The position numbers were made by a program, and so were the translations under genes. Source: Bryoerythrophyllum caledonicum (Eukaryota; Streptophyta; Bryopsida; Pottiales; Pottiaceae). Taken from it: 64,000 nt of DNA. Shown piece by piece: positions 9,270 to 57,549 of the stretch. Under the pieces are notes generated by a model that did not search any database, was not told the DNA's origin, and was given only the letters and a program-made list of their open reading frames with translations. Position 1 is the stretch's first letter. Every line of letters starts with the position of its first letter. The stretch is taken from NCBI GenBank assembly GCA_963971425.1, contig OZ020520.1, positions 5,064,553 through 5,128,552 on the forward strand, read 5' to 3'.

Positions 9270-9512
9270 AGAGTATTTTTAAATGGAAAGAAAGCTTCTT
9301 AATCGTATTAAATGGAAAATATAGATGTAGATAAATGCAATAATTGTTAAAAATATATATTTGCATACAACATTGAAGTTATGTTTAAGTATTGAATGGA
9401 GAGCTAAGAACTGAAGCCATAGGTGATGGTTGTTAATGGTGAAAGGGAATTTATTAACATTATATGCTTCACTTCACATTCAGTAGAGTAGCTTGAATTT
9501 ATTATTGATGTA

Positions 9513-10092
9513 CAATAGGGTGACATTCAAATTGGCCGTTTAGTAGTTCCAGGGATAGTGTCCTACACTGCTGCCAACTTTGACACCCTCCCCAAAGCTG
9601 AGAAATTGTTATTTTACCATGAAAATTTGGGGACAGCATCATCTTTATGTTGAAAACATGCATACCAAATTTCAAGTCCAGGAGACTTATACAAAAAAAC
9701 TTATGCAAGATCTACCAACATGGGATAGTTGTGAGAAAAGTGTCACATCTGCCAACTTTGACACCCTCCCAAGAATTGAGGAAATTTTTTTTGCCCATGA
9801 AATTTTTGGAGAAAAAACATTTTTATGTTGTTTGCATGTGTGGAAAATTTCAAGTCCAAAAGACCCATACAAAAAATAATATTCCAAATCTACCAACATG
9901 TGTAGTTTTGAGAAACAAAGGGGAAAACCATCTTACTACTTCCAACTTTGACGCCCTCCTTAGGATTGAGTTTTTGTTGATACATAATGAAATTTTTGGC
10001 ACAAGATCATCTCTACGCTAGTAACATGTGGGATAAATTTCAAAGCCAAAAGACATACATAAAAAAAGTTATTCCATATCTATCAACATGTG
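9513..10092 (+). repeat. Left terminal inverted repeat of Tc1-like copy 1
   Basis: The arm is built from about three subrepeats of roughly 185 bp. Each carries the complement of GAGGGTGTCAAAGTTGG and a CCAACATG-containing block. The first 90 bp also hold an imperfect hairpin: GGGTGACATTCAAATTGGC faces GCCAACTTTGACACCC. Long ORFs in this arm are by-products of the repeat. Confidence 0.85.
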
Positions 10093-10494
10093 TAACTATG
10101 ATAAACAATTTGAAGGTCATATTGAAAATGTCAAAATATCTTTGACACCTCATGCTTTTTCATTGAACTCAATCATGTGAGTAAGCCACCAAACATAAAT
10201 GCTTCTCAAAAAGATCAATAACATCTAAATGAAGAAGTGAAGAGGTGTTCCATGCAGAAGAATCCACTTGGCCATAAAGTATGCATTAGACACATGACAA
10301 AAAATTTCTTCTAAATATCTATTGAACACTACGTAAAGGGAATGGTGTGTGTGATTTGTGATAGACTGAATGTTGAGACAATCCTCAAAACAAAGAGTGT
10401 TGTATTGTGGGATGCATGAGTGTTGATTCACATTGGGCATACATGATGAGTGATTAAGAGCAAAACGATTTTTCATGTATGCATATGGGCTTGT

Positions 10495-10690
10495 GTTTTG
10501 GCAACCCTTCTCTCTCCTCTCTGCTCCAGTGCCTTGGCTCCCTTCTCTCCCCCTTGCTCTGCTCGAGCCCTGTTCTCCTTCCTTTGCCAATTGTCACGTG
10601 TCAATCCTGCAACCCCCTTTGCTCTGCTCTAGCCCCTTGGCCCCCTTCTCTCCCCCTTGCTCTGCTCTAACCCCTACTCTACTGCTGTAG
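10495..10690 (+). repeat. C-rich duplicated segment upstream of the Tc1 transposase
   Basis: A pyrimidine-rich stretch containing CCCTTCTCTCCCCCTTGCTC occurs twice, about 110 bp apart, between the left arm and the transposase start. The corresponding place in the second copy lacks it, so it was added in this copy. It occupies the likely promoter region. Confidence 0.6.
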
Positions 10691-10715
10691 CTAGCATCAC
10701 GCACTATATAAGTTT

Positions 10716-11726
10716 ATGATGGCAATTTCAAATGAAATTCGTGCTTGCATCATAGGTTTGAGTGAGGGAGGATTTACAGGAGTTTAAATTGCAGCTACTA
10801 ATGGAGTTCCTATTAGAACAGTTACAAGGTTAGTAAAAACATTTAGAGAAGATGGAACCTACAAGCGCAAACCTTGCGGTGGAAGTCACGCTAAAAAGCT
10901 TAGTGATAGAGATGTTCGTAGTATTGTGCATTACTCAAAAATTCATCGTTGCTCTTCACTCTCAGAGATTACCAATGCATGTCCTACTCAAGTGTGTAGA
11001 CGTACTATTCAAAGGGTCTTACATAAAAATGGCATTTTTAGTCGAATTGCAGTCAAAAAACCTTTTTTGACACCTCGTCACATGTCTCAACGATTAGCTT
11101 TTGCTCAGAAGTACCGTGGATGGAGTGCAAAAGAGTGGGAGCGTGTTGTTTGGACAGATGAATCTACTTTTGAAATTGGAAAAAATTCTCGGCAAATTCA
11201 TGTTTGGAGAAGTGCATGCGAGCGTTATTCATCAAGTTGTCTAGCTCCTACTTTTAAAAGTGGAAGGACTTCTTTAATGATTTGGGGCGCATTTGCCGGA
11301 GGACAAAAGTCAGAACTTGTCTTTATGCCTAAAGGTCAACGTTCTGCTAAGGATTTTATAGAAGTGGTTTACAATGCCAAATTGGTTCATTTCATGGGTC
11401 AAATTCCACAAGGAGTGCTTATGGAAGATGGGGCACCCGTCCATAGGAGCAAAATATGTGAAGAATGGAGACAAAGCCACCTTCTCGAAAAGCTCAACTG
11501 GCCTGCAAACTCTCCCGATCTCAATCCAATCGAGAACGTTTGGAGGATGTTAAAAGATGTTGTGCAACATGGCAAACAATGCCCTAGAAGCTTAGATGTG
11601 TTGAAGGTAGTTCTTGAAAGAGAGTGGAAGTTAGTCAATGGTACAAAGCTCCTTCAACTATGTCATTCTATGCCCTCTAGGTTACTAGCAGTAATTGACG
11701 CTAATGGAGGACATACACGTTGGTAG
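10716..11726 (+). pseudogene. Tc1-like transposase (DD34E), one in-frame stop
   Basis: This enzyme cuts and pastes the surrounding element through a DDE catalytic site. Reading from the ATG at 10716 gives an N-terminal helix-turn-helix region (EIRACIIGLSEGG ... GVPIRTVTRLVKTF). The DDE_3-type catalytic domain follows: the first Asp in VVWTDES, the second in MEDGAPVH and the Glu in SPDLNPIENVW. The last two are separated by 34 residues, the classic Tc1 spacing. A TAA at 10785-10787 interrupts the N-terminal region. The second copy (22481-23496) reads the neighbouring codons differently and has its own stop one codon earlier. The ancestral reading there was therefore probably Gly-Val-Gln. Downstream of the stop the frame is open to the end (about 313 codons), so this copy has only one visible lesion. 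Confidence 0.85.
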
Positions 11727-12293
11727 ATATGGAATAACTTTTTTTATGTATGTCTTTTGGCTTTGAAATTTCTCTCACATGTTACCAGCGTAGAGATGAT
11801 CTTGTGCCAAAAATTTCACTATGTATCAACAAAAACTCAATCCTAAGGAGGGCGTCAAAGTTGGAAGTAGTAAAATGGTTTTCCCCTTTGTTTCTCAAAA
11901 CTACACATGTTGGTAGATTTGGAATATTATTTTTTGTATGGGTCTTTTGGACTTGAAATTTTCCACACATGCAAACAACATAAAAATGTTTTTTCTCCAA
12001 AAATTTCATGGGCAAAAAAAATTTCCTCAATTCTTGGGAGGGTGTCAAAGTTGGCAGATGTGACACTTTTCTCACAACTATCCCATGTTGGTAGATCTTG
12101 CATAAGTTTTTTTGTATAAGTCTCCTGGACTTGAAATTTGGTATGCATGTTTTCAACATAAAGATGATGCTGTCCCCAAATTTTCATGGTAAAATAACAA
12201 TTTCTCAGCTTTGGGGAGGGTGTCAAAGTTGGCAGCAGTGTAGGACACTATCCCTGGAACTACTAAACGGCCAATTCGAATGTCACCCTATTG
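11715..12293 (-). repeat. Right terminal inverted repeat of Tc1-like copy 1
   Basis: This is the reverse complement of 9513-10092 with few differences. GAGGGTGTCAAAGTTGG or variants occur near 11847, 12040 and 12217. The transposase stop codon (11724-11726) lies just inside the arm, so the last codons of the transposase are part of the repeat. Confidence 0.85.
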
Positions 12294-12489
12294 TACATAG
12301 TGGATATGTGGCATAGTAATTACTGTGATGAGTTAACAAGCAACGTAGTTTGTGAGTTAATTACCTTGCAGACAAAAATCGGTTGGGATTCACCCTTGCA
12401 CATTTTTGGTTGCTTTTCTAAAGTAGAGCTGTAGGTGACAAAAGTTTCCAGATTAATTTACAAGGAACGTTGAAATTTTTGGGGGTCTG

Positions 12490-14856: not shown

Positions 14857-16207
14857 GATCTTGGGGAGACATCTTTAGGTGAAGGGGAGAGCTCTAACCA
14901 TACATGGTACTCATCATTGAGCCATTTTGACCCCGAGAGTAGTCGGACTGATTTTTTATTCAAGTTCCCATTGAAAGGCATCAATGACGGATTTCCGCTA
15001 AGGGAGGGCGCAAGAAATAGCTAAGGAATATTGAAGGAAAGTGTGATTGCTATGGATTCAGAACGAGAAAGTATAATTTGGTTTAGGTGTTGATCTTAGG
15101 CTGATAGGACTAGAGGGGAAGTGAAGCATGTGCTATGATCGTCTAGTGTCACGTATTTTTGTTTTTTTCGAATTTGTAGGCAAACACACGGATTCATTAG
15201 GGATGATGCTACGGCGATGGAATAAATTATTGTAAATATAAAGGCAAGGCACAACTATATCAATAATGTATTCTTTTTTAAAATATTGATCACCTGTTGT
15301 TGCAAAATTACACATATATTTTAATGTTGCATACGGTTGACATGTAGTGCATCAAGGATAACTGTGAGAATACCTACGTGATTGTAAATTCTGCAGGTGC
15401 AGGTGAAAATGGTATTTCTTCAGAATACCTTTAATAAGCACATATTCATTTAATAAAGAAGAAAATAGTTGTAAAGGCATTCATCCCATAATCAGAAAAG
15501 TTGCCGCTAAAGCAACGATATATGCCAAGGGGCAATCTTGGTAAAACTAGGTAAAAGTAGAAATGAATTCTATTGTGCTAGAGGGTAATAGTATTATCGG
15601 AAGATAAATTGTCACCGTGGAGGTACCACGTCAAAAGTGACCCGTAGGAAGGGTGACCATCCATGGGCCGGCGTGGACTAGTTGCCATAATGGATATGGC
15701 AAGGTGGACAACACACTGTGGATGTAGATAGCTGCGCTGCCACATTAGATTTTCGAGCATGACACAATTCGAGAACGTCCTTGTAGGTGTTACCATCATA
15801 TGCACATTAAACACCTCTCCATGCGTTTACCTTCATAATGATGTTTGAGCCAACTCTCTAACAAGGTTTGAAGGAATTTCATATGGACAATTTTAGTGTA
15901 GTTAACAACGGTGCAAATGTTGCTACACCACAATTTTTCTTGTAGTGTGCAAATTTGGATGATATTTTTGGGACTATTTAATTGCTTAAATGGTTAGACT
16001 TGAGTAGTGACGTGGAAACAATCTTTGTAATTTTCCAAAGTATCAATGTTGCCCAAGAAGACAAATCTTTTTTGTGTTACATTAGACAACACTTTGCAAT
16101 CCTAGCCGGTTCCGAATATTGTCCCAACCATTGCAACATATTGTAACACCATATTTTGCTACAGAGCTCCCAACTTTCCCGTGATTTTCCTTTGTGAATC
16201 ATCCTTC
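14857..16207. other. No gene seen
   Basis: This is AT-rich sequence with only short ORFs and no recognised repeat. It ends at the left terminal repeat of the large element. Confidence 0.4.
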
Positions 16208-16238
16208 AACACGCAATTAAGCAATTATGCACTTGGCC
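16208..16238 (+). repeat. Left terminal inverted repeat of large element A
   Basis: It starts AACACGCAATTAAGC and ends CACTTGGCC. It is followed by AAGTGC, which extends a small palindrome (GCACTTGGCCAAGTGC). It is preceded by CTTC. It is identical over 31 bases to the complement of 27437-27467 and to 56943-56973. Confidence 0.8.
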
Positions 16239-16805
16239 AAGTGCACTGGTTGCTGGTAGAAAGCCGCAAGTTATTTGCTCATAACTTTTTTTTAAATCAA
16301 AATTTGGCAAAAGTTTAGTATGTTTTTTGTCAAATTTTTTTGGTGTTTGTCGTGTCATACCTTGGCATCTTCATGTTCATATCAGTAATATATTTTTTAC
16401 ATTTGCTACCTTTTTTTAGAAAATATATGATATCTAATCTAGTTTACAAATCCTGCTACAAAATTATAATCATATGCCCAAAGAGATTATAAATTTGTTA
16501 TGAGTTAATATAGGATTTTAGAGTAGTGCACTACAAATACAATGTGTAAGAGATACAAAAATATATATGCAATTTGTGTAGACACTGTAAAGTACCTCAC
16601 TGTATTTTATAATGCAAAAACATACATAATCAAGCAATTCCACACTATTGCTGAGGAATTCTAAAATCAAACATATCATATGGACCACCTCATATATAAA
16701 TATATACCACCCACCGAACGATAGACACATCTCAAACTGCATTATACTAACGTACTTGTCACCTAAACTGCGTGCATGCTCTACTATAGTATATAGCTCC
16801 AGGGC

Positions 16806-19800
16806 TTAGAGCTCATCTTCTGGCGGAACGACTCTCTCCACGTGTCCAATGGCGCTACCTACCATAGCGGACAGTTCATGATCCTCCACTGGATGATCTC
16901 CCACATCTTCGATGCCAATGGACGCACACTCAACATATCGGTAATTGCCAGAAACACCCTACCGCGTATGCCTTACCCTATCATCATTGTAGAAAAAGCC
17001 ATCCTCTAGATTGAAGGACATCTCTCGCTCTAAGGAGAAGGCCCTCTGAAATACAATGATGTCCTCAGATACGCTAGATCTTGGAACGGAAGGCAAACCT
17101 GGTCCGGTATGACTTTGAGTACCTCCGAAAGTCTCTTGTGTCTCCGATACAGGCTCTGATTGAGAAGGCATCGAAGTCTGTGGAATCCTCCTCTGCACCG
17201 TAAAAAATTCCAAAGAATCCAATTCTTCTTCCTCCATCTCCAACCTAGGACCATCAAATGTACGCCCCCCTCCTGCCCCTGCCGCCAAACCAACATCCAC
17301 TACACCGGTATCTTGCATCCTCTCTGTAGGTGTTGTAGACGTCTCCCTAAAGAATCTCCCACCGCCCGCTGCGTTGATGGAATCCTCTCTCTTGGAAGAA
17401 ACTGGTTCACTCCATCTTCATTGGCGTTTGAACCACTGCGAGATGAGAAATCTTCAGTGGTACCTGAACGTGGCAATCTCTCATGTAAACCACGTCCATC
17501 CTCATTGTCGTCTTCATTCTCCACTCCACTAATCGCCTCTTCGGTCTCAACTACGATGTTGCAACCAGTACTTGTTCCACCAGTCCTGACCAACAGTTGT
17601 CCTTGGAAATTGTCGGACAACTCATTGTGCATGAATGAAACTCTGTCTGTACAATCGTCAATGATGAAAACCTCAGATCCCTGGAAATCTCCTTCAAGGA
17701 TCGTGGGAATGGCCGTAGATATGTTACACACCACTAAACCCCAACCACGGCGCAAGTATGAGCCCACTAGTCTTGCCAGCTCTGATGGAGATCTCTCAAG
17801 TGAATCAACTACAGAGGGTTGGCGTGCTTCACTCCAGTGATCCAAGAAAACAAGAGGAAGTGGAACATCTCCAGAAACGTAGTTCGGACCAGGAGAAGTA
17901 CCCACAGGGTGCTGCATACAAATCACAACATCGCCAATCGGTTGTACTATTTGCTCCAGACGCCCATTCTCTGTAAAATCGAGAGCATAGGGATTAACGG
18001 AGTTTGGATCAAATGCCAAACATCCACATCGCATAGTACATCCCTCTGGAAGCTTCACCTTCGTGAAAAACTCTTCGTTGGCATACATGGCCGCTGGTAA
18101 CAAGAAGGTGACGTTTCATCGTTCAATATTTGCCATCAATAATGCCAGCTGTGCAAAAACTGCAGATAATTGGGCGTCTCCCCAATGACCATCTCCATGC
18201 CTCCCACCGCCACGTCGACAATCAATCACCCACAAATATGGTTTCCCCAACTCTATATAGTCGGTGCGGAATAACCCTCTTCTACACCGAAACGGAAGAA
18301 GATTCTCTGTGTCGCTCTAGCCTGGCCTCTTGACTTCTATCTGCCATTCCCAATTAGCAGTAGCCAGTCCTCCCACATCTACGGACAGTCCAATGCAATG
18401 TCACCATAATGAAACCTGATGGAATGGGGGGATGAGGTAGCCTATGTCTTCTAGTTTAGACACCTTCCTCCGCACATGACCAGTCCAAGTTTTTTTCGTG
18501 GCAGCATTCAAAAGCTTCCCAAACATATCAAGTTGTGCGTTACTCCTCGGAAAATACTTCCCTATACAGATACGAAAGAAATCCTCCATGGAATTAGGTG
18601 TACTTTCCTTGTTCTCCACCATCAACCAACGGATGGAATTCATCACAGCTTCTCGTCTCTGATATCGGTCAACCACACCGGCAATCGTACGAGGATGTGG
18701 ATTCTTGTCTTTTACACCGTCAAAGTAATATGCTTGACGTGGTCTTACTCCATCTTCTCCCACCGGCTTCGCTGTAGTAGACTTTGCCAACCGAAGTTAA
18801 TATGGATTCGGAACCCTACCTAACGGCCTCAACCAATTCTGAGTCATCTCCTTTCTTGTTGGTCGTACGTCCACATTTGGATCCAGCTCTTTCTTCCTCG
18901 CCATATCCTTCCACTTGTCCTCTTCCTCCTTGTTGTAAAAGAGAATGCCGTCTTCATAGTCCTTGCATACTTGAATGATAGCTTCCAAGCAGTCATTGCT
19001 CGGATTCCATGCATGATTGGTCAGGTCCTCTATGTTTTTGGCCAACTTATGCACTCCACTTGCCGCACTCACCAAAGCAACAGCCCTACGTGCATCGTTC
19101 ACACGTAGTGTGCTATCAGGCCTCCCGTATAGATCCCAAATCTGACGAATCTTCCTCCATGGTAGAATATGACTGTCTCTGGAACTCTGCCACGTTGATC
19201 CGCGCAGGCTTCTCAATGTAAAAGCGACGATCATCATATACCACAAAAGAGGCCTCCCGCCGCTCGAACGTGTCCGGATACTCATTTAAAGGCATAGTAA
19301 CATCTCTCCACTGCTGCTGTGCAAACTTACAAGCTACTACTATGTGTTGCCCATCCACCGGTTCCCAAATGATATGATCTTGAAGCCAAGAATACTGCGA
19401 TCCCATCGTACCCTGTGTAGAAGCACTCCTGTGTGCAATGAATATGCGCTCAAACTCTCGTGCGGTTCCTACCAACGGAAATGGCAGCTCCTCCTTCTCA
19501 ATGACACCATCATCGGCGATAGTATGCACGATGTATCTGATCGGTCGAAGTACCAATCTACTCACCCGACTCGCAGATACTGGGTCTCTTAAGCAGTTAA
19601 ATACTTCTCTGACCATCTTTTGTGATAAAACCCGGTGGTTCGTTTCCGGGTCCTCCACAGAGACAATGCGGTCTATGTGTGCCTTAAACACAAAATTCCC
19701 CCACACTGATCCTTTCGCAATCTCCTCCGTTGTAGGCACTGGTGCTTTTAAATACATTGAAGTTGGAAGATCCTATGGTATCTCCGCATTCTCTTCAAAA

Positions 19801-20704
19801 TCCTCTGGTATACTATCTAGAAGGTTGTGAAAATCTTCTTCCTCCGGCGCCATGGCTGACAAATCAGCTAAATCTCCCGGTGTAGATGTAGGGGCTCTAC
19901 GATGACCATCAGACGTCCTGAGCCCTGACCTAGGAATCCTGCCACCCGATCTTGCACTTCTCCCAATCAACCTCCTCCCGCTTGGATCCAAACTTGATGG
20001 GCTTTCTCTGAACCAGAAGTTATATCACTTTCAACACGCCGTGGCCTCTTCGTAGGACGTCTACTCGTTAATGGAGGATTCGGTAATGTCTGTACCTCAG
20101 AAGTTGTGCTGGAATGTTGGCCTCCACTTCCCCTCTCCCCCTCCAGTGGTCGCCAATCCAATTGCAATGGCTCAGCAAGAACTCGATAAACTTCTGTTTC
20201 TTCTGGTTCCGCTAGTGGAGCTTGAGTTGTCGCACGTGATGGGTCCCTCTCCCGAAATGCTTCATATCTAATATGTTCCTCCATAATCTTCTTAGCCTTC
20301 AGCACCATCTCCGATGATAATGCTAAACAGGATAAGACGTTGTTGTGTCTAGTAGTACGTACGGCAAGAGAGATGTTTAACCAAAACGTCTGCAATGATT
20401 TGAGGAATTTCACTTGACCTGGATTTTGAAGAAGATTCAAAGGTACAGGTGCCAAAAGCAACTTCTTCGAAACAGAAGTCTTCACCTCCGATTGACCTGC
20501 ACCCACCGCGCAAGTAACGTATACCATATCATCACGTCGAAGAGTGATTGCTTGGATTTTGCCAAAACTCTTCCCCAACGCCGATGTACGCTTTCCCAAC
20601 TCAAAGGGATAATCCGTCACCCATAAGAAGGCGCTCGACTGATCCACTTCTGCAATCCACCAGCCGTGGCTCTCCCAGATTCTATCAATATTTGGTGGTG
20701 CCAT
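16806..20704 (-). pseudogene. ParB-like / DNA-methyltransferase-like fusion protein, copy A (broken)
   Basis: The reading starts at ATG 20704 (MAPPNIDRIWESHGWW) and ends at TAA 16806-16808 (PPEDEL), roughly 1300 residues across several frames with at least six interruptions, some of which could be introns. In order: an N-terminal domain of about 200 residues without a recognised fold; a Pro/Arg-rich linker; a ParB/sulfiredoxin-like domain (about 19690-19235) with VDGQHIVVACK matching the DGxHR-type motif; a middle helical region; a methyltransferase-like region (about 18340-17590); and an acidic tail. The methyltransferase-like part follows the beta-class order: YLWVIDCRRGG at the DPPY position, then a PIGDVVICMQH strand, then SPSELARLVGSYL and GSEVFIIDD at the positions before and after motif I. 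The canonical DPPY and FxGxG motifs are absent. ParB-methyltransferase fusions are known from phages and bacterial mobile DNA. Function here is unknown. Copy B (57550-61506) supports the domain order. Confidence 0.5.
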
Positions 20705-20929
20705 AACGCAACACTCAAAAAACCTGTATATCATTACAAAACAATAGTCACTATTAGTATGGAATAAGAATTTTTGAACCACCACTCATTGCACAATATT
20801 TTTGAACATGCAACACCCCTTGTCTACCTCTAAAAACTTTTGCACTACACAAGATCTAAATCCAATACCATCGTGTTAAGCATATTGTTAGTTCTTTGGT
20901 GAAATAGCATATTCATCCAAGTCAATTAT

Positions 20930-21500
20930 TTTCACACATTGTCACACATTTTTGAGGAGAATACCAAAAAACTTCTACCTTTCCACATAAAACTTTGAGA
21001 TCTTCGTATGATTCACTTTTGATTTTTTCTACGGCATTATGTGATGTAAACCTTCGTATTGACCATTTGGATTCTCATTCAAACGATATCAAGTTCACAA
21101 AAAAACATAACGTGAATTGTGAATTTTTGAACCCCCACTCATTGCACAATTTTTTTGAATATGCTACACCCCTTTTCTAACTCTAAAAATTGGTATGTAG
21201 CAAATTAACATCATGCTTAACATTATGGTAATTAATTGAGACATTTTATAGTGCAAAAATGTGACACCAATTGAAATCAAAGACTGCTGATCCAGAAAAC
21301 GCAGGGAAGAAAATGAGCATTTTCACTACTTCAAACATTATAATCTTTCAATCCGTGCGGTGAAACTTTATGAAATTTTGTGAGCATATTACTTAATTAG
21401 TCATCATTCAGATCCTACGGTTAAAACTAAAAAAAAACATTATTTGCAGAGGCTTTCTAATTGCACAAAAACAAGCAATTTTAACGAAATTTGGGTTCGA
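20930..21500 (+). repeat. Dispersed repeat R1, copy 1
   Basis: This block of about 570 bp contains CACACATT, AACGTGAATT, CACTCATTGCACAA, CATCATGCTTAACATTATGG and TTTCAATCCGTGCGGT landmarks. Related copies lie near 30745-31335, 49325-49905 and 63745-64000 in the same orientation, and near 51595-52070 inverted. It shows no ORF. Confidence 0.75.
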
Positions 21501-21529
21501 TATTCTCCACATCATTTATGGACCAAGGT

Positions 21530-21890
21530 ACTTGGGGTATCAATATCTAGGGTATCACGACCAGGGTATGAGTTCCTTCGTACCACAACCGGTTATCAAC
21601 CGGTGTATCAAATTAGGGTTTGGATTAGGGTTTGGATTAGGGTTTGGATTTCAGGGTATCAATAAGGATATCAATCCATTGCTCAAGTGGGTAGTCCTAG
21701 GAGGGGTGTGCGCGCGCATACCCCTGGTAGAAGTTGTGAGGGAGGCTGTGAGTGAGAAGGTAGGGTTAGGAGGAGAGAGACAATGTGTGGGAGGTGTGAG
21801 GAGATGTGTGGGAGATGTGTGGGAGAGATGGTGTGCGGGGAAGGTGTGAGGGAGGGGAGGGAAGTTGAAGGAGGTGTGAGGGAAGTTGTG
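21530..21890. repeat. GGTATC-rich and TTAGGG-containing low-complexity stretch
   Basis: Repeated GGTATC words (21533-21680) enclose three copies of ATTAGGGTTTGG (about 21617-21655). A G/A/T-rich tract follows up to the gap. A similar GGTAT-rich, then GA-rich succession occurs in copy B of the large element (about 62560-62890), so this is probably the middle of the element family. Confidence 0.55.
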
Positions 21891-22090
21891 NNNNNNNNNN
21901 NNNNNNNNNNNNNNNNNNNNNNNNNNNNNNNNNNNNNNNNNNNNNNNNNNNNNNNNNNNNNNNNNNNNNNNNNNNNNNNNNNNNNNNNNNNNNNNNNNNN
22001 NNNNNNNNNNNNNNNNNNNNNNNNNNNNNNNNNNNNNNNNNNNNNNNNNNNNNNNNNNNNNNNNNNNNNNNNNNNNNNNNNNNNNNNNNN
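21891..22090. other. Assembly gap (200 N)
   Basis: There are exactly 200 undetermined bases. The sequence after the gap pairs with position 24783 of the right arm of the second Tc1-like copy. About 547 bp of the left arm should therefore lie inside, and the true gap is probably larger than 200 bp. Confidence 0.95.
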
Positions 22091-22480
22091 CAAAAGAAGA
22101 TATTCAAAATCTACTAACATGGGGGTTAGTTGTGAGAAAAGTTTCACAGCTACCCACTTTGACACCCTCCAAGAATTCAAAAAATTTATTTGTCCATGAA
22201 ATTTTGGGTATGAAGTCACCTTCACGTCAAATACAAGTGTGGAAAATTTCAAAATCCAAAAGATTTACACAAAAAACATATACCAAGTCTACCAACATGT
22301 ATTGTTGTGACAAACAAAGGGGAAAGTTTACCACTACTTCCAACTTCAACACCCTTCCTAGGATTGAGTTTTTGTTGATACATAATGAAATTTTGGCCAC
22401 AAGATCATCTCTATATTGGTAACATATGAGATAGATTTCAAAGCCAAAAGATGTATATACAAAAAAAAATTATTCCATAT

Positions 22481-23496
22481 CTACCAACGTGTATGTCCTC
22501 CATTAGCATCAATCACCGCTTGTAACCTTGAGGGCATAGAATGACATAGTTGAAGGAGCTTTGTACCACTAACCAAATTCCACTCTTTTTCAAGAACTAC
22601 CTTCATCACTTCTAAGTTTCTAGGGCATTCCTTGCCATGTTGCACAACATCTTTTAGCATCCTCCAGACATTCTCGATTGGATTGAGATCGGGAGAGTTT
22701 GCAGGCCAATTGAGCTTTTCGAGTTGGTGGGTTTGTCTCCATTCTTCACATGTTTTGCTACGATGAACAGATGCACCATCTTCCATTAGCACTCCTTCTG
22801 GAAGTCTACTCAAGAAATGAATCAATTCGCCATTGTAGACCACTTCAACAAAATCTTTAGTAGAACGTTGAGTTTTTGGCATAAAGACAAGTTGTGACTT
22901 TTGTCCTCCAGCAAATGCACCCCAAATCATCAAAGATGTCCGTCCACTTTTCCAAGTTGTAAAGTAGGAACTATACAACTTGATGAATAACGCTCATATG
23001 CACTTCTCCAAACATGAATTTGCCGAGAACTTTTTCCAATCTCAAAAGTAGATTCATCTGTCCAAACAATACGCTCCCACTCTTTTGGACTCCATCCATG
23101 GTACTTCTGAGCAAAAGCTAACCGTTGAGACATGTGATGGGATGTCAAGAAAGGTTTTTTGACTGCAATTTGACTATAAATACCACTTTTATGTAATACC
23201 CTTTGAATAGTACGTCTACACACTTGAGTACGGCACATATTAGTAATCTCTGAGACCGAGGAACGATGATGAGTTTTTGCATAACGCACAATATTATTCA
23301 CATCTCTCTCACTAAGTTTTTTAGCGTGACTTCCACCGCAAGGTTTGCGCTTATAGGTTCCATCTTCTTTAAACGTTTTTACTAACCTCTGAACTATTCT
23401 AACAGAAACTCCAGTAATGGCTGCAATTTGAACTCATGTATTTCCTCCCTCACTCAAACCTAAAATGCGAGCACGGATTTCATCTGAAATTGCCAT
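22481..23496 (-). pseudogene. Tc1-like transposase, copy 2, frameshifted
   Basis: It is closely related to the transposase at 10716-11726. The reading starts MAISDEIRARILGLSEGG at 23496. An in-frame TGA follows within the N-terminal helix-turn-helix region (Gly codon in copy 1). An extra 8 bp near 22950, compared with copy 1 (CCTACTTTACAACTTGG against CCTACTTTTAAAAG), shifts the frame in the catalytic domain. The DDE residues themselves remain: WTDES, MEDGASVH and SPDLNPIENVW. This copy cannot make a full enzyme but could respond to transposase from another copy. Confidence 0.85.
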
Positions 23497-23840
23497 TATA
23501 GACTATTTTTTATGATGTTGATACAATACTAAATGCTCTTCAATAAGTAATCAATATAACACTCAACCTATGGCAATTGGATTATATAATTCAGTAAACA
23601 CAAAGGACTCAGCTTATGGCATGTGCACTAAATCAATCAATCAACAACATAACACTCACATTGGCATGTGCATTAGGTGATAACCATGGCATGTGCATTA
23701 GATGATAACCATGGCATGTGCATCAATTGAGTGAACCAAAAAATACTCTTGGACATACTCATGCCACATGTGATTCGTCAACACTCAGTAAACTAGTCAA
23801 CAACACTCAAAAAATATATATATATATCCACTCAATAAAT

Positions 23841-23936
23841 CAGCCCATATGTGATATGCCCACTCAATGGATCAGCCCATATGTGATATGCCCACTCAAT
23901 GGATCAGCCCATATGTGATTTGTCTACTCAATCAGT
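23841..23936 (+). repeat. 32-bp tandem repeat, three units
   Basis: CAGCCCATATGTGATATG starts at 23841, 23873 and 23905. The third unit drifts at its end. It lies inside Tc1-like copy 2. Confidence 0.85.
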
Positions 23937-23968
23937 CAACAACACTCAACCCATATCTAATATGTCCA

Positions 23969-24090
23969 CTCAATACCATCTCAACATTCACTCTCAATAC
24001 CATCTCAACATTCACTCTCAATACCATCTCAACATTCACTCTCAATACCATCTCAACATTCACTCTCAATACCATCTCAACATTCACTCT
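23969..24090 (+). repeat. 24-bp tandem repeat, five units
   Basis: CTCAATACCATCTCAACATT starts at 23969, 23993, 24017, 24041 and 24065. In Tc1-like copy 1 the same place has a single ancestral unit, so the array arose by expansion inside copy 2. Confidence 0.9.
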
Positions 24091-24379
24091 ATTACAAATC
24101 ACATGACAAAATACACACAACATTTCCTTTACATAGTGCTCAACAGATATTTGGAGGAGAAAACTCGTCATACGTGCATAATGCACACCAAACCTTATGA
24201 CAAGTGGATTCTTCTACACAAAACAACTCTGCAATTCTACATGTAGATTTCATTGATCTTTTCAAGATGCATTTATGTTTGGTAGCTTAGTCACATGAAT
24301 AAAATCAATGAAGAGTACGAGGTATCAAAGATAATTTGACATTCTCAATATGCCCCTTCAATATAGTTTCTCATTGTTA

Positions 24380-25330
24380 CAAACATTGGTAGATATGGAA
24401 TAATTTTTTTTTGTATATACATCTTTTGGCTTTGAAATCTATCTCATATGTTACCAATATAGAGATGATCTTGTGGCCAAAATTTCATTATGTATCAACA
24501 AAAACTCAATCCTAGGAAGGGTGTTGAAGTTGGAAGTAGTGGTAAACTTTCCCCTTTGTTTGTCACAACAATACATGTTGGTAGACTTGGTATATGTTTT
24601 TTGTGTAAATCTTTTGGATTTTGAAATTTTCCACACTTGTATTTGACGTGAAGGTGACTTCATACCCAAAATTTCATGGACAAATAAATTTTTTTGAATT
24701 CTTGGAGGGTGTCAAAGTGGGTAGCTGTGAAACTTTTCTCACAACTAACCCCCATGTTAGTAGATTTTGAATATCTTCTTTTGAATACATTTTTTGGCCT
24801 TGAAAATTTTCCCACATGTTATCAACATAAAAGTTACCATGTGTCAAAAATTTCATGTTGAAATAACAAACCCTCAATCCTAGGGAGGGTGTCAAAGTTG
24901 GAAGTAGTAAAATGGTTTTTCCCTTTTTTTCTCACAATTACACATGTTGGTAGATTTGGGATGTGAATTTTTTTGTGCATTTTTTGGACTTGAAAATTTC
25001 CACACATGTAATCAACATAAAGGTGTTCTCACTCCAAAAATTCCATGGGAAAAAAAAATTTCCTCAATCCTTGGGATGGTGTCAAAGTTGGCGGTTGAGA
25101 AACTTTTCTCACAGCTACCCCATGGTGGTTAATTTTTAATATCTTTTGTTTTATAAGTCCTCTGGACTTGAAATTTGGTATGCATGTTTTTAACATAGAG
25201 GTGATGATGTTCCCAAAATTTCAGGGTAAAAGAACAATTTTTCAACCCTGTGGAGGGCGTCAAAGTTGGCAGCAGTGTGGGACACCATCCCTGGAATTGT
25301 CCAAACGCCAATTTGAATGTCACTGTACTG
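24380..25330 (-). repeat. Right terminal inverted repeat of Tc1-like copy 2
   Basis: Variants of GGAGGGTGTCAAAGTTGG lie near 24516, 24703, 24884, 25076 and 25253, spacing 177-192 bp, so the arm holds about five subrepeats. The matching left arm is visible only from 22091 to about 22490. Confidence 0.8.
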
Positions 25331-25332
25331 TA

Positions 25333-26898
25333 CATGGGATTGGTTTATATTGCGATGTGTGGTTTGGGGCTCACCACAAACACGATAGCAATCAAGTCGT
25401 GAGTACATTGTTGTACGTGATTGGAGATGTGCTGCGGAGGAGGGGCTTTTTGCCACCAACACTGCGAATTCAGGCCGACAACTGCACGCGTGAGAACAAA
25501 AACATTTATATGTTTGCTCTATGTGCTACATTGGTGGGATTGGGGTTTTTTCAGGAGGTGGAACTATCTTTTCTTATAGTGGGCCATACCCACGATGATA
25601 TTGATCAACGCTTCAGTTGTATATCAAATACGTTGAAGAGGTCGGACGTCGACTCGTTGAAGAAAATGATTAGTCTTATAGAACGAGGAACATCTCCTAC
25701 AGAGGCATTTGTTAGCGCCCGGCTGCTAGAGAATGTATGGGATTGGAAATTGTTCATAATTCCTCACTTATTGACAGGTCAGGATTCATTGGTGGGCATA
25801 ACATTTCCGCACCACATGCGATTCTATATGGACAATCGAGAAGGAACTCGTGAGGTTCGAGTACAACACAAGCATTATTGCAAGGATCCATGGGGACTGG
25901 AGGCAGGGACGAAAAGTTTGAGGTCGTTGCCAAATAGGGATGAACGACCATCGTTTGCGGAAGTATTTGCAGCGGACGAACGGGAGTTGAAGGCGTTGGA
26001 TGACTTCATTGCATATAAACAAAAGTGCATTCAAAGGTTGCAGCATGAGGACAAGAATCGTGAGGCAAAAGTAGAGGCTGAAAGATTGAAACTATATTTA
26101 GCTCAATTTCCACACAAAGATCGTAGCAATGAGCATCGTACCTCACCATTTTGGCCTTCAGAGTTCTCCAACACCGGACCTACAGGGAGCGCATCTTTGG
26201 ATGTAATGGATGGTGCAAGTGAAGAAAACCGCGAGGTAGATGTAGTAGAGCAGGTAGTGGCCATGCTTCCAAATGCCGAGGCTCGAGGATACTTTGGTCC
26301 TCGTAGAGGAAGACCCTCTAATCAAGCAGTGCGTAGGGTACAACAAACAGAGCACACCTATGTTGAGGAACGCGCCGAAGAAGGACCAATGTATGATGAT
26401 AATCACGACCCATTTCCACCATTTAAGCCACAATCTGATATCCTTTGTGGACAGTTTGTAGCCTTGAGTGTTGATCGAGCAGAGATAGAAGGCGGTGTAC
26501 CATTCTATGTGGGGAAAGTGATTGAGGAAGGAAAAAACCGATGGAGACTTAAGATAAAGGTTTGTTGGTATTGGCCCATCATCCAAAGGGGGGTTGTTGA
26601 TGGACATGGGTCTTCTGCACAACGGTATGCAAATTGCATGGATTCATTCTGGGAGCCATCTGGGGAGAGCCATAGTTGGGTAGAGAAAGATGCATGCATT
26701 TTTTCATGGGTAGACACATTGGAAAGAACCATGTCCGGGGCCAGCGGGTGGAGAAAGCGCAATGTATTTGGAGTGCAGGTTGAAAGCAAGATTCGCATTC
26801 TTCAATCGGCAAAGGCTCACATCCTACAATATATTGCAATGCAAACCAAAGCTATCGATGACGACCGTTTGCAAGCAGCCCTAAATTCTATGGAGTAG
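25333..26898 (+). CDS. DUF7869-like transposase-like protein with AT-hook-like and BAH-like parts (5' truncated)
   Basis: The open frame runs uninterrupted for about 520 codons after the end of the Tc1-like insertion. It begins GLYCDVWFGAHHKHDSNQ. The family core follows: RIQADNCTRENKN, then VELSFLIVGHTHDDIDQRFS. I associate this pattern with DUF7869-type, RNase H-like transposase domains; the Asp of ADNC and the HDDID cluster are the likely catalytic residues. Further on there is an AT-hook-like PRRGRPSNQ. Near 26428-26580 a BAH-like module has FVALSVDRAE, PFYVGKVIEE and KVCWYWP. The protein would act on DNA in the nucleus, and its place next to the right terminal repeat makes it the best candidate transposase of the large element. 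The N-terminal part is missing. The frame continues upstream into the Tc1-like arm from 25180, which is accidental or chimeric. The 3' side up to the terminal repeat shows no other gene. Confidence 0.6.
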   Translation, partial: HGIGLYCDVWFGAHHKHDSNQVVSTLLYVIGDVLRRRGFLPPTLRIQADNCTRENKNIYMFALCATLVGLGFFQEVELSFLIVGHTHDDIDQRFSCISNTLKRSDVDSLKKMISLIERGTSPTEAFVSARLLENVWDWKLFIIPHLLTGQDSLVGITFPHHMRFYMDNREGTREVRVQHKHYCKDPWGLEAGTKSLRSLPNRDERPSFAEVFAADERELKALDDFIAYKQKCIQRLQHEDKNREAKVEAERLKLYLAQFPHKDRSNEHRTSPFWPSEFSNTGPTGSASLDVMDGASEENREVDVVEQVVAMLPNAEARGYFGPRRGRPSNQAVRRVQQTEHTYVEERAEEGPMYDDNHDPFPPFKPQSDILCGQFVALSVDRAEIEGGVPFYVGKVIEEGKNRWRLKIKVCWYWPIIQRGVVDGHGSSAQRYANCMDSFWEPSGESHSWVEKDACIFSWVDTLERTMSGASGWRKRNVFGVQVESKIRILQSAKAHILQYIAMQTKAIDDDRLQAALNSME

Positions 26899-27436
26899 AT
26901 AGTGTGCCTTTTTTAGGGTATACTAGTTGTGTATGGTAATTGATAAATAGTGTATGTGTAAGAGTGGTATATTCTAAGGGTGATCTAAGACGTTATGTCA
27001 TTAATCCTTTAGAGTAAAGTTGTATTTAATATTGGTGCTAAGTCCAATTGTTGAGGCATCTATATTTAGTTTTCACCATTGTATGCATTATGTAGTACGT
27101 AGAATATCTTTTAATCAATTGCCAACCCTTGCATAAAGTATGTTTTTTTGGATTACGCCTGTTTATATACTACAATCCTTCAAATCTATCTTTGAAATAT
27201 TGTGAAACTATATTAAATACATATTTATCTAGTATTAACAAGGGGCCACCACAAATTAGTTGAAAATGCCAAAAAATCGCTTCCAATATGAACAACCATG
27301 ATTGTACGTAATATTGTTGCAGAAGCTCAATTTTTTTTTTCTTTGGAAAACATTTTTTTTCTTTGATTTTTTTTTTTTTCAATTTTGCCACTTTTGTTCG
27401 CAATGGCCGCCATTGTACCCAAGTGCACTTTTAAAT

Positions 27437-27467
27437 GGCCAAGTGCATAATTGCTTAATTGCGTGTT
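27437..27467 (-). repeat. Right terminal inverted repeat of large element A
   Basis: It reads GGCCAAGTGCATAATTGC and on to GCGTGTT, the exact complement of the left end. It is followed by CTTC, matching the four bases before the left end. It lies about 540 bp beyond the stop codon of the DUF7869-like gene. Confidence 0.8.
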
Positions 27468-27602
27468 CTTCTTGTTTGTTAGCAACTTCGTCCGCACAAC
27501 ATTAAAAGATGGTGGGATTTATATTGGCATTCGGATGTGGGTAGTCTCATAAATTGCATGTGTACAGGCAAGATGCTTAATAATATTGAATTGTATGTGG
27601 CG

Positions 27603-27845: not shown

Positions 27846-27869
27846 GTACTTCTATTGAATATGGATACA

Positions 27870-28275
27870 CTAAGGTGTTCCACTTTTTATGCCACAGTGT
27901 CCCATATTTGGAACAAATTTGTTTTTAAGATACCAATGAGGAAAATTGCGATACTGAACTTGGCGTAATGACTGACATTACTAATGGATCCTAGGGTCCA
28001 TGGGCAATTTGCCATTTGAAATCAATATTCAATAAAAATAATTAGAAACAATGAATTCAATAATTGAAAGCCATTTTTATTATACTTTCATTGGTTGGTA
28101 GAGGAAGCTAACAAGATTCTAAATATTGGCCTAATTTTCAATTTATTAGTTTGTCTTTGAATTAAATCTAAACTAAAAATTAGAAATTTTTAGTGTCACA
28201 ATGTACTCCCTCTCAAGTTTAGAGTTCCTAAAAAATTCATTGTAGAAGGGATTAAATTCAAAAATTAGGCCCACA
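27870..28275 (+). repeat. Dispersed repeat R3, copy 1
   Basis: It shares GTGTCCCATATTTGGAACAA, ACTAATGGATCCTAGGGT and TTTTTAGTGTCACAATGTAC with 56010-56395, same orientation. There is no ORF. One copy lies to the right of element A, the other to the left of element B. Confidence 0.75.
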
Positions 28276-30744: not shown

Positions 30745-31335
30745 CATTTTCACACATTGTCACACATTGTCACACATTGTCTGCATGGTACCAAAAAAAC
30801 TTTCTTCTTTTGCATATAAATCTTAATGATATTTCTATTTTTTACTATTTATTATTTTACAACAATATGTGGTGTGAACCTTCTTATTGACGGTTTGGAT
30901 TCTCATTCCAAAACATATTTAGGTCACAAAAAACTAAAACGTGAATTTGCACTTTTTGAACCTGCACTCCTTGCACAATTGTCTTGAATATGCTACAATC
31001 CTTCTCTACCTCTAAAAATTGATGTACAAGGAACTAACATCATGCTTAACATGATGGTAATAAAGTTGGACCATGTGTAGTGCAAACATTTGACAACAAG
31101 GAAGTCAAAGTCTACTGATATACCAACTCAAGGAAGAGAATGAGTTGTTTTCTCTATTTCGAACACAATAATCCTTTAATCTGTGGGATCAAAGTTTATG
31201 AAATTTTTTGAGTTCCTTACTTAATAAGTTTTAGTTGAAATCCTAGAGTTAAATGTAGTTTTTTTTTTGTTTTCCTCGTCACTCATTGCACTAGAACGAG
31301 TAGATTTGGAGTATTTGTTGAGGAAAAAATGCCTT
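30745..31335 (+). repeat. Dispersed repeat R1, copy 2
   Basis: It begins near CACACATTGTCACACATTG and contains CATCATGCTTAACATGATGG. Similarity to 20930-21500 and 49325-49905 is clear over more than 500 bp. There is no coding content. Confidence 0.75.
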
Positions 31336-42027: not shown

Positions 42028-43577
42028 GTCTGCTGATTATTCTGAGGACGTGACCCCAGTCGAGAGGATCAGCTCTGCTCAGTTGCAAAGTTCACCAAGT
42101 GCTGCAGGAGCAGAAGAAAGCTACAGTTTTTATCACATGGTCAGTTCAGTACTTCCATTTGCAGCTTGACTTGTGTGGAATTGTGTCTAGGACATTGAGT
42201 TTGATATTCTGCCATTATATTTATTGTGCTGATGATGGACAGCAGGAGGAGAAAGCTGCGAAGCTTTCGGGGATGACGGCAGCGCGAGTCGAGGATCTGC
42301 TGATCCGCTGCGCCACCGCCATCGAGAACCGAAACGTGGCCTCCGCGCAACAAGCCGTGCACGAGCTGCAGCGCATCTCGTCCGTGGACGGCGAGCTCCC
42401 AAGCGAGCGCGTCACGGCCTACTTCCTGCGCGCGCTCATGATCCGCGCCGGCACCTTGCTGCAATCCAGCCAGAACCTGCCCCCCGAGCTCGACCTCGCC
42501 CAGTACATGCGCGACAATCCTCACCGTAAGCGTGTTCATCTCTCACAATTATCAGCTGCTGATGATCTCTCTCACAAAGGTCGAGCTGACATAAAATCTT
42601 GAGTGCTTCGCGCAGAAGTGCGATGGGGAGAGCGCGCGCTCGGATTCAACGACCTGACGCACCTGGTGGACATGACGCCGTTCTATCGGTTCGGGTACAT
42701 GGCGGCCAACGGCGCGATCCTGGACGCGTTCGAGGGGATGGACCGCGTGCACATCGTGGACTGCAGCACCTCGCACTGCATGCAATGGCCGACGCTGATC
42801 GACTCGCTGGCGGATCGCACGGACGGGCCGCCCCACGTGCGCCTCACGGTTTGCACCGCCGCGCTCCCCACACCGCCGCGCCTGCACCCGTCCTACGAGG
42901 AGGTGGGCCACCGCCTCATGCTCTGGGCGCGCGAGAAGGGCGTGCCCTTCGAGTTTCACATCCTCCCCCGGCCCCTGGAGAGCCTGTGCATCAGCGACGT
43001 GGCCCTTCGCGACGGGGAGGCGCTGGCGGTAAACTGCAGCCTGCGCTTGCACTACCTGAGCGACGAGACGAGCTGCAGCTCAGATCAGCTCTGCCCGCGC
43101 GACAAGTTCCTGCAGCTCGTGGCGTGCCTCAACCCCGCCGTGGTCACCGTCTACGAGGAGGACTGCGACGCGACCTCCAACGACCTGGTAGCGCGTCTCA
43201 AGGAGTCGTACAACCACGAGTGGATCCCGTTCGACTACCTCGCGACGTACGCGCATCACGGCCGGCGCGAGCACGAGCGCGACCTGGGGCTAAAGATTGA
43301 GAACCTGGTGGCGTGCGACGGCGCGCACCGGATCGAGCGCCTCGAGTCCCTGAACCAGTGGTCGCAGCGCTTCAGGAAGATGAACTTCCGAACACTGCGC
43401 ATCAGCGAGGACGTGATCACCGCGTTGCAGGAGATGGTCGGGGATTACGCCGGTGGTTGGGGCATGAAGCTCGAAGACGACATCCAGATTCTCCACTGGA
43501 AGGGCCATAGCCTCTCGTTCGCTTCGGCGTGGGCGCCTGCACCGCCGCCGATCAAACTCAGCTACTTGCACTACTAA
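42028..43577 (+). CDS. SCL32: GRAS transcriptional regulator, SCARECROW-LIKE 32 type
   Basis: GRAS proteins are plant nuclear regulators of transcription. Three exons are supported: 42028-42139 (SADYSEDVTPVERISS...), 42243-42525 and 42616-43577. Introns of 103 and 90 bp have GT-AG ends and keep the frame; the second joins DNPH to QVRWGERALGFND. The GRAS domain is nearly complete. The first leucine-rich region contains VEDLLIRCATAIENRNVASA. The VHIID motif appears as VHIVDCSTSHCMQWPTLIDS. PFDYLATYAHHGRREHE lies in the PFYRE region. The SAW end is GWGMKLEDDIQILHWKGHS followed by FASAW. The layout fits AtSCL32 (recalled, about 410 residues); the visible exons give about 450 residues. The true start codon lies upstream of 42028 and was not found. 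The large exon is very GC-rich, unlike the surrounding DNA. The gene converges with the DNA glycosylase 640 bp downstream. Confidence 0.85.
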
Positions 43578-48395: not shown

Positions 48396-49320
48396 TCGTG
48401 AGGTGGGTTTTTGCATATCTGAGGCACGTTCCCATGGTCACAAATCTAAAATGCTTGAAATTTTGTACAAGGATGCAAGAAGACAAGAGGTACAGTACAT
48501 GGGAATGTCATTTATATTCTCATCGGACTTGTAGAACAAAAGTTATGCCATCTTAGAGGAAAAACTTCTTGAATGTTGTGTCGTGCACAACCGCATCGTG
48601 CCAAGATAACATTGTGCTAATTAGGTGAGAGCGCACAGTCAGAGACAACTCGAGAGTGATGGTGACATAACCACCACCGTTACCTCTATAAAACAATAAA
48701 ACAATACACACTTACACACTATCAGCAATCCAGACTTAGGGAAAAGAAATAAATGACCCATAACCTCGTATACCAAGAAGTAGTAAGCCGTCTACAAGTA
48801 CCCCTTTACTAATAAACAAGTAGAACATACTCATAAACTACACATAGTCAAGTCAATGCGATTCTTAAAGAATGAGCGCATAATAACAATGAAGCTAAAG
48901 AAGTGCACGCACGCACGCACTCTCTCACTCCATCACGTGGGAGACTCAACTTGAGAAAGATGAGTCTCCCCACACTACACGTGGAGGTCATTTGGACTCC
49001 AAGTCCCAAATGAGGTGTCAAAAGACACCACCAAGGCCCTAAAAGTCAAAAGACTCTAATACTAACTCTAATTAATAACTAGAGCTAGAGTCTAGGTCTT
49101 CCTTGGGCCACTTAACCTCCTAGTTGGTTTATAACGCATAAACCAACCTCCACAAACCCTCCAACGCGCCGAACCTTACACCTGGCATCGGGCAATTCAT
49201 GAAACTTTTGCCATGACACTATTGAATGTGAGATTTTCAATACCATCAAGTAATATTGTCTCCTTTCATACTATCAGAAAACATTTCTTTTCTCTAGTGA
49301 AAGATAGCATTTTATGCCAA
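48396..49320. other. No gene seen
   Basis: Contains a short (CGCA)n run at about 48905-48921 and no supportable ORF. From 49215 on it resembles the sequence just left of R1 copy 2 (30640 region). Confidence 0.45.
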
Positions 49321-49324
49321 GTCA

Positions 49325-49905
49325 TACATTTTCACACATTGTCGGGCAAGGTACTAGAAAAACTTCATCATATCCACATAAAACTTAAAGATCTTTGTAT
49401 TTATCACTTTTTCTTTTTTTTCTCCTACAAGATTTGGTGGAAACCTTCTTATTGACAGTTAGGATTCTTGTTTTAAAAGATATTGAATTCACAAAAAAAC
49501 GAAACTTGAAATGGCACTTTTGAACCTCCACTCGTTGCATAGTTTTTCAAATATGGTGCACCCCTTTCCCACCTCTGAAAATTGGTGTACAAGGATCTAA
49601 TATCATGCTTGACATGATGGTAACAAATTTAGACCTTGTATAGTGCAAAATTTGACACCAAGTGAAGTCAAAGTGTGTTGATTCTACTCAACGCAGAGAA
49701 GAAAATGAACTTCTGTCTCAACTTCAAACACTATAATTTTTCAATCGGTGCAGTCAAATTTTATGAAATCTTGTGAGTATGTTACTTTCTAAGTCTTAAT
49801 TGAGATTCTATGGTTGAAAATGGAAATAAAAGTGTTTGTTTTCTTTCTTACTCTTAGCACTAGAATTAGCGGTCTTGAAGTGTTTTTGGTGAAAAAATTT
49901 GTCAA
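49325..49905 (+). repeat. Dispersed repeat R1, copy 3
   Basis: It matches 20930-21500 and 30745-31335 through CATCATGCTTGACATGATGG and the final GTGTTTTTGGTGAAAAAATT. Confidence 0.75.
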
Positions 49906-56005: not shown

Positions 56006-56009
56006 ACAC

Positions 56010-56395
56010 TATGGTATCTCACTTTTGATGTCACAGTGTCCCATATTTGGAACAAATTTCTCTTAAAGGTGCCTAAATGAGGAAAATTTCATTATTGAAT
56101 TTGGTGGAATGATTGAAATTACTAATGGATCCTAGGGTTCAAGAACAATTTGGCATTTGTAATCAATATTAGTTTTATTCACTAAAATCACTAAAAATGG
56201 GGAATTCAATAAAAATTTGATTTAAAAAAATTCTGCAGGTAGGTCTAATTTTTGTTTGATTAGTTTGTCTTTGAAATAGTTCTAAACTCAAAATTATAAA
56301 TTTTTAGTGTCACAATGTACCTCCTCTCAATTTTAGTGTTCCTAAAAAAATCCTTGTAGAAGGAATTAGGCAACAAAAGAATTAGACATGTATAA
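56010..56395 (+). repeat. Dispersed repeat R3, copy 2
   Basis: Same landmarks as 27870-28275. It is followed by AT-rich sequence and a (TTC)n run near 56818-56840 before the left end of element B. Confidence 0.75.
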
Positions 56396-56942
56396 AAAAA
56401 TCAAGTTAACTTCTATGACCAATGTCACTAGATTTTTGGTACAATACATAGTCTCATATTCCCTTATGAAAGGGGGTTAAAATTACTTTTAGCTTGAGTT
56501 TGGTAACCACAAGGCTCTTCTACATTGAATAAAAATACCAATTGAGAGACCACAAAACTCTTCTAATGATCTAATAGCTGTAAAGAGTAGTATTATAAAT
56601 AAAAAGAAGAATACTTTATTGAAAACTTGTCATTTTTTGTAAAAAAAGGTCAATTGATTAAAAAAGGTAACTTAGTTTTGTAAAATTAAGGATAGATACC
56701 AAGAGTTTTAACCTCTTTTTTCAAAAAAAATATTATTATTAGCCATTAATAGCTCTCAATTCACTTAGAATTAGCTTAAAGAAGAAAAAGGTGGATAGAA
56801 TTCAAAGTACCTCTCCTTCTTCTTCTTCTTCTTCTTCTTCATTAAGGCGGTTGAAACTACTTCTAACTTGAATTAAAGACCACCAAGCTCTTCCATACTA
56901 GATAGGATATCACCACGAGGCTCTTCCACATCCAACAAGGAA

Positions 56943-56973
56943 AACACGCAATTAAGCAATTATGCACTTGGCC
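56943..56973 (+). repeat. Left terminal repeat of large element B
   Basis: It begins AACACGCAATTAAGCAATTA and ends CACTTGGCC. GGAA precedes it, so GGAA is the predicted flank at the unseen right end if the target duplication is 4 bp. Confidence 0.8.
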
Positions 56974-57549
56974 AAGTGCGCTAATTGGCGCTCAATAACA
57001 ACAAGATTTTGAGCGGAAATGTCTTTTGGAAGGAAAAAAAAATCCGACAATCCCTATTTTTTCTTTGCTATATTTTTGTGACAATTTCATTGAATATTGG
57101 TTTCTCAATGTGTACATAAGTAAATCATTTTCACCATTTCGGTAAGATTATGCATAATATATGATTACGGTATTTCATTTTTATTCCATTGACAATATTA
57201 CATTGACCATGTACTTACAAGAAACTATTCATATACAATTTGTTGCATGAAATAAATTTTATATGATTTTAAATAAATTTTAGTGTCGTGCTACAAATAC
57301 AATTTGTAGAAGATGTAATGATAAAGCACGCAATACAATGATGAAGTGTGAGGTTTAGAACTCTATATTTTTCATATATATAAAACCATACATGATATAA
57401 CTATTGAATACTACAAAGATCATATACTACAATCAAACAAACCGTCTCTAAAGCAAATATACCAATCACATTGTACTAGTCACCTAAACATCATGTATGC
57501 TTAGCTAAGGTATGACCTCAGAGTCTTCATCATCCTATAGCGATATTAC

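Follow-up and report, generated by a model that had tools for sequence, protein, structure and literature searches.

In the brown alga Ectocarpus, the DNA transposon Sola1-1_Ec32 carries a gene for a 1,104-amino-acid ParB–methyltransferase protein on the strand opposite to its transposase (PMC12477816). The same paper cites a 2011 chapter and a 2025 Bostrychia genome paper for similar proteins in the transposons of green and red algae, and proposes that the algal ParB–methyltransferase proteins bind and modify their own transposon. Sola elements have a DDD transposase, 4-bp target-site duplications (TSDs) and terminal inverted repeats (TIRs) of 11–1,124 bp (PMC10741241); most are 2–9 kb in size and some exceed 15 kb, and the superfamily, including Sola1, occurs in the moss Physcomitrella (PMC9033089, PMC10741241). 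Among bacterial ParB-methylases, excerpts of one paper describe the protein Bce_0392 and report that the ParB part of a Bacillus ParB-methylase nicks DNA (PMC5512222). Fungal DNA transposons carrying TET/JBP genes likewise place a DNA-modification enzyme beside a transposase, but they differ in enzyme class (dioxygenase) and in superfamily (PMC12730594).

Here, we analyse a 64-kb stretch of DNA (the window) that contains two copies of a transposon with a comparable gene pair, A with both ends and B running past the window edge. Like Sola1-1_Ec32 as described in the available text, copy A is a large DNA transposon in which a long gene, read as ParB-like plus DNA methyltransferase, lies opposite the transposase strand. 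Sola1-1_Ec32 is 21.5 kb long and lives in a brown alga, whereas the window element is roughly 11 kb with a nested insertion in a plant-like host; its long gene has about 1,300 codons, a comparison made by description, and the catalytic motifs are absent from the window copies. Among the papers listed in searches of the open-access literature, PMC12477816 was the sole one found to describe this gene pair. The combination is already known in algal transposons, if little known, and here occurs apparently outside the algae. Copy A is best explained, with a probability of roughly 0.6, as a once-mobile Sola1-type cut-and-paste transposon with an accessory protein that derives from a ParB–methyltransferase and acts mainly in DNA binding.

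Ends, copies and size of the transposon

Copy A is a real, now damaged DNA transposon (Table 1). It is bounded by a perfect inverted repeat, AACACGCAATTAAGCAATTATGCACTTGGCCA, whose two arms are identical at 32/32 positions; the earlier sequence-only reading had recognized these ends as identical and paired, at a length (31 bp) one base too short. With up to three mismatches allowed, AACACGCAATTAAGCAATTATGCACTTGGCCA occurs three times in the window, every time exactly, and 100 shuffled sequences yielded no match. The third exact end opens copy B, which continues past the window edge. CTTC stands directly outside both ends of copy A, as that reading had stated, and forms a 4-bp TSD, observed in one copy, at a chance of 1 in 256 for a given 4-bp match. 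Immediately beyond the elements, nine flanking bases on the right of A (27468–27476) and nine on the left of B (56934–56942) agree at seven positions in the same element-relative orientation, possibly reflecting a target-site preference.

Part of the left TIR of copy A forms, with the adjoining bases, an 18-bp palindrome, TGCACTTGGCCAAGTGCA (16228–16245), and a second TGCACTTGG lies 20 bp inward of the right TIR (27419–27427, minus strand). Copy A has two TGCACTTGG sites per end: those on the left form a palindrome, those on the right a direct repeat with 20-bp spacing. Copy B has one exact site and a partner with one mismatch. Because all five exact sites in the window sit at element ends, TGCACTTGG is a candidate binding site for either protein.

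The two genes of copy A read outward from a shared centre, the left on the minus and the right on the plus strand, confirming the divergent arrangement noted before. The 'family' then proposed gains a second copy in B and is based on these two copies, with both ends and both genes visible in copy A alone. Both copies in the window are decaying. In the viral contigs searched, neither the exact 32-bp end nor either gene had relatives.

Table 1 Features of the transposon copies in the window
Feature	Position	Strand	Remarks
Left target-site duplication, CTTC	16204–16207		Adjoins copy A end
Left terminal inverted repeat, copy A	16208–16239	+	32 bp
Left gene, copy A	16806–20704	−	About 1,300 codons from MAPPNIDR; about 4 in-frame stops, 5 frame shifts
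Proposed methyltransferase-like region, copy A	17591–18358	−	ANWEWQ... to ...NFQGQLL; canonical motifs absent; no profile match
ParB/Srx-like region, copy A	19320–19691	−	Box VDGQHIVVACK; no profile match
Assembly gap	21891–22090		200 Ns
Nested Tc1-like element (DDE_3)	22091–25334 (end approximate)		Inserted in right gene; outer left part in N gap
Visible right gene, DUF7869 transposase candidate	25333–26895	+	PF25273; 521 codons open; 5′ part lost
Right terminal inverted repeat, copy A	27436–27467	−	32 bp
Right target-site duplication, CTTC	27468–27471		Adjoins copy A end
Left terminal inverted repeat, copy B	56943–56974	+	Identical to copy A ends
Left gene, copy B	57550–61506	−	55% protein identity to A; about 8 in-frame stops, 4 frame shifts

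The 11,260-bp span of copy A includes 200 Ns and a nested Tc1-like element; the visible arms of the latter show complementarity of 100% over 312 nt and 99% over 97 nt. The transposon proper is therefore at least 3.2 kb shorter, and the previous figure of 11 kb, although it describes a real element, is inflated by both. The nested insertion ends at about 25334, where the similarity of the right gene to DUF7869 begins, indicating that the insertion cut the right gene and that the gap has swallowed the beginning of this gene. A fuller Tc1-like sibling lies at 9508–12298, with 584-bp arms that are 99% complementary; its open frame of 312 codons matches DDE_3 (1.2e-16) and HTH_Tnp_Tc3_2 (3.8e-15).

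Several other repeats are scattered through the window. A dispersed repeat occurs at 20892–21437, 30756–31253, 49290–49830 and 63778–63938, the other occurrences being 71–76% identical to that in copy A. Each transposon copy contains one, though not at the same distance from its left gene, and the remaining two are not accompanied by these ends. Another, about 84% identical and in the same orientation, is found 400 bp to the right of A (27867–28254) and about 575 bp to the left of B (56006–56368). The palindromic motif GCCGAYRTYGGC has 10 strand matches at 6 sites in 1–2430, clustered at 67–571 and 2359, against 0.03 expected; the open frames around it have no Pfam match above the cut-off, and the region resembles a further transposon, as yet unclassified, in which the motif forms subterminal repeats. 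GRAS proteins are linked to plants, and with a GRAS protein gene at 42603–43574 (E = 4.5e-79) the host is apparently a land plant or closely related to one.

The DUF7869 transposase candidate and the Sola assignment

The visible right gene matches the Pfam family DUF7869 at 155.1 bits (E = 2.2e-45; cut-off 26), bearing out the family named in the sequence-only reading; a search of open-access literature for DUF7869 gave no paper. In relatives, the aspartate motifs follow the order D...QxDN/G...GHTHxDID. The window protein retains the second and third as QADN and VGHTHDDID, and the first falls within the missing part. A search with a degenerate GHTHxDID pattern gave 30 loci (4 viral and 26 genome), three of which, all on genome contigs, had tblastn backing at E < 1e-3 (L039, 8e-19; L052, 2e-5; L055, 2e-5). 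L039 has HDKMD...QMDN...VGHTHDDID in a 963-amino-acid frame (DUF7869 E = 1.7e-42), and in L052 a single frame carries the three motifs together, ISDGM...QIDGG...VGHTHEDID (E = 6.8e-23). In L055, ISDGM is followed in a separate frame by QIDGG...VGHTHEDID, and the piece tested scores 16 bits, below the DUF7869 cut-off. The aspartates of these motifs would be the catalytic residues. The contig with the L039 frame is 4.3 kb long and carries the label of an uncultured Synechococcales cyanobacterium; the frame is there probably as eukaryotic contamination, otherwise through horizontal transfer. All three loci come from short contigs in bins of metagenomes or uncultured isolates and are probably eukaryotic contaminants.

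In a low-confidence model of the L039 protein (mean pLDDT 41), a strand stands just before the first aspartate and another ends at the second; next come a helix and a further strand, and the third aspartate cluster opens another helix. This is the order of RNase H-like transposases and makes an RNase H-type fold plausible, as far as a model of such low confidence allows. Of 163 PDB matches that Foldseek listed for this model at E ≤ 10, none reached E ≤ 0.001, and a PDB search with the right protein gave no match. Thus, of the earlier RNase H-like reading, the motif order and the modelled order of elements fit, whereas the structure comparison yields no significant match. The DUF7869 protein is likely the transposase of the element.

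The element resembles Sola, including the Sola1 of Physcomitrella, in its 4-bp TSD (one copy), its 32-bp TIR within the 11–1,124-bp range and its probable aspartate-type transposase, with two of three aspartates visible. It differs in that its span, nested insertion included, lies above the 2–9 kb of most Sola elements, and homology of DUF7869 to Sola transposases is putative. In these features, and in the long gene opposite the transposase, the element fits the published picture, whereas the ParB and methyltransferase tests described below do not. Large accessory genes are known from the EnSpm and KDZ superfamilies as well. It is conceivable, though unlikely, that the element belongs to one of these or to another DDE superfamily, or that DUF7869 constitutes a separate superfamily; this would be compatible with both readings of the left gene. 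The Sola assignment is based on TSD and TIR length, visible aspartates, host range and the accessory gene rather than on sequence comparison, and giant EnSpm elements with accessory genes in red algae are cited in PMC12477816. Against such a relabelling, a 4-bp TSD is a stated feature of Sola (PMC10741241), and the published ParB–methyltransferase gene on the opposite strand belongs to a Sola1 element (PMC12477816).

The left gene is probably old and under selection

The left gene is present in both copies, with its reading frame broken in each. Its end in copy A is either the TAA at 16808 or the TAG at 16961. The break counts in Table 1 refer to the body of the gene and exclude one frame shift where the alignment begins, two stops near the end of copy A and events at or past the likely stop of copy B (57552). 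A frame-aware alignment of A and B comprises 1,289 residue pairs at 55% identity, and blastn gives 68% identity over 2,397 columns and 67% over 509 columns for its two longest pieces. Compared in the coding frame, the copies have a dN of 0.335 and a dS of 1.193, and 18 of 1,289 codon pairs contain a stop; the other five frames have dN/dS values of 0.39–1.65 and 52–127 stop pairs, roughly three to seven times more. The lowest of these values (0.39) belongs to the reverse frame that shares its variable position with the coding frame. Differences at codon positions 1, 2 and 3 amount to 0.31, 0.25 and 0.48. The comparison shows that the left gene is under purifying selection, with a dN/dS of 0.28 that is rough because dS exceeds 1, near saturation, and the alignment was made at the protein level.

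As the ends are identical at 32/32 positions and the coding DNA at 67–68%, the elements were probably still mobile when most of this divergence accumulated. The left gene appears to be a long-standing component of the transposon, maintained by selection; its recent capture is rejected, since both copies carry it at a dS of about 1.2. Seven of the 12 in-body stops face CAG, TGG or CGA in the other copy, a weak indication of the decay expected of methylated DNA. Between 59166 and 60882 in copy B, all seven in-body stops outside a displaced stretch are TAG, two of which face TGG and two CAG in copy A, suggesting decay through cytosine deamination.

Tests of the ParB and methyltransferase readings

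The sequence-only reading had placed a ParB-like domain followed by a beta-class methyltransferase-like fold in the left protein. One element of this is visible: a GxH box followed after three residues by alanine (VDGQHIVVACK in A, VDGQHVVAACK in B) occurs once per copy at the same place. Profile searches do not confirm the two domains. Separate pieces of the left protein match no family in Pfam, PHROGs or NCBIfam above chance level, the read-through proteins have no Pfam match, and profiles of the ParB-like region, the methyltransferase-like region and both together match no PDB sequence. The predicted model of the left protein has a mean pLDDT of 29.9, too low for use. The proposed methyltransferase region has no relatives in the bacterial genomes searched, and tblastn of two window pieces against phages gave one match at E = 4 for one and none for the other.

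A ParB-methylase of Wolbachia phage WO (L002:28518–29741; 408 amino acids) served as reference. It matches N6_N4_Mtase at 1.9e-26 and ParB_N at 1.6e-5 (25.3 bits, against a cut-off of 26.3) and contains the methylase motifs CDPPY and DPFSGSG. A Wolbachia phage gene in another record (L001) proved not to encode a ParB-methylase, and a search of that record for ParB_N gave no match. The comparison set comprised 12 phage proteins, L002 and 11 taken from the 45 listed among 468 L002-similar phage records, and the Pfam scan within it covered L002 only. With bacterial and phage ParB-methylases (L002; Bce_0392 as excerpted in PMC5512222) the window proteins share the proposed order, ParB then beta-class methyltransferase, and the GxH box, but they have no significant similarity to L002 or its 11 relatives. 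All hhalign probabilities between window profiles and the 12 phage proteins are below 1%, the top one being a reversed control. In hmmsearch without filters, the best E values are 0.34–0.46 with negative bit scores; copy A is listed for the whole and methyltransferase models where reversed A is not, and for the ParB model the reversed form scores as high as copy A. Gapless motif scores over both copies together are not significant (p = 0.29–0.63). The lowest single-copy value (p = 0.036, motif IV in B) falls at an unrelated linker and is taken as chance, and the top-scoring X-I-II site in A and ParB box site in B fall where expected, but p values of 0.86 and 0.79 make them no evidence.

These null results fit a conserved accessory protein of other origin that resembles ParB and methyltransferases by chance, an explanation we nevertheless regard as doubtful. 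It leaves the VDGQH-x3-A-C-K box, ParB-like and kept in both copies, to coincidence, together with the match in architecture, strand and approximate size to the Sola1 ParB–methyltransferase gene as described in excerpts of PMC12477816. The ParB and methyltransferase labels are likely, because the published algal architecture and the sequence-only reading, made without tools, agree on two domains in the same order; the agreement is one of architecture, not of a sequence score.

Catalysis is another matter. DPPY-type motif IV, (D/N/S)PP(Y/F/W), and motif I, FxGxG, have no site in copy A and none in copy B, and their absence from both makes decay of a single copy an unlikely cause. In an alternative that follows the sequence-only reading, the left protein would be a working N6-adenine or N4-cytosine methyltransferase, guided by its ParB-like part, and would mark the element's own DNA so as to aid end recognition, block re-cutting or counter silencing. 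Such a role has been proposed in print for Sola1-1_Ec32 and its algal relatives (PMC12477816) and agrees with the purifying selection, which shows that the protein matters. It is improbable here, given that both motifs are missing and that the stretches placed at the expected catalytic motifs read IDCRRGG and VICNMSTTIPT or VVCNISTAIPT, against CDPPY and DPFSGSG in L002. The suggestion that methylation marks or protects the element's own ends is accordingly in doubt. The left protein is probably not a canonical methylase; as it lacks the classical methylation motifs, a helper function in DNA binding is more likely than active methylation. It may also nick DNA, as has been reported for the ParB part of a Bacillus ParB-methylase (PMC5512222).

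Implications for transposon-encoded ParB–methyltransferases

In the Sola1-type reading with a DNA-binding accessory protein, the DUF7869 protein would be a DDD transposase that recognizes the element ends, including the TGCACTTGG sites, and carries out both its excision and its insertion, the latter with a stagger of 4 bp. The accessory protein encoded by the left gene would descend from a ParB–methyltransferase, with its ParB/Srx-like part and a methyltransferase fold without the usual catalytic signature used mainly to bind the element's own DNA. Such binding would assist transposition or escape from silencing, rather than serve classical methylation. Much more tentatively, a plant DDD transposon lineage may have kept a ParB–methyltransferase under selection while its methylation chemistry was lost, so that the protein now acts as a recognition subunit for palindromic ends. 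If this is true, a domesticated methylase scaffold would be part of a transposition complex.

ParB–methyltransferase accessory proteins in eukaryotic transposons have been described as a possible novel class, and the excerpts of the literature examined hold no tested function for them. With a further, apparently streptophyte lineage, in which selection on the gene is measurable, the ends are conserved and the catalytic motifs are missing, it can be asked more sharply whether these proteins act on transposon DNA by methylation, by nicking or by binding alone.
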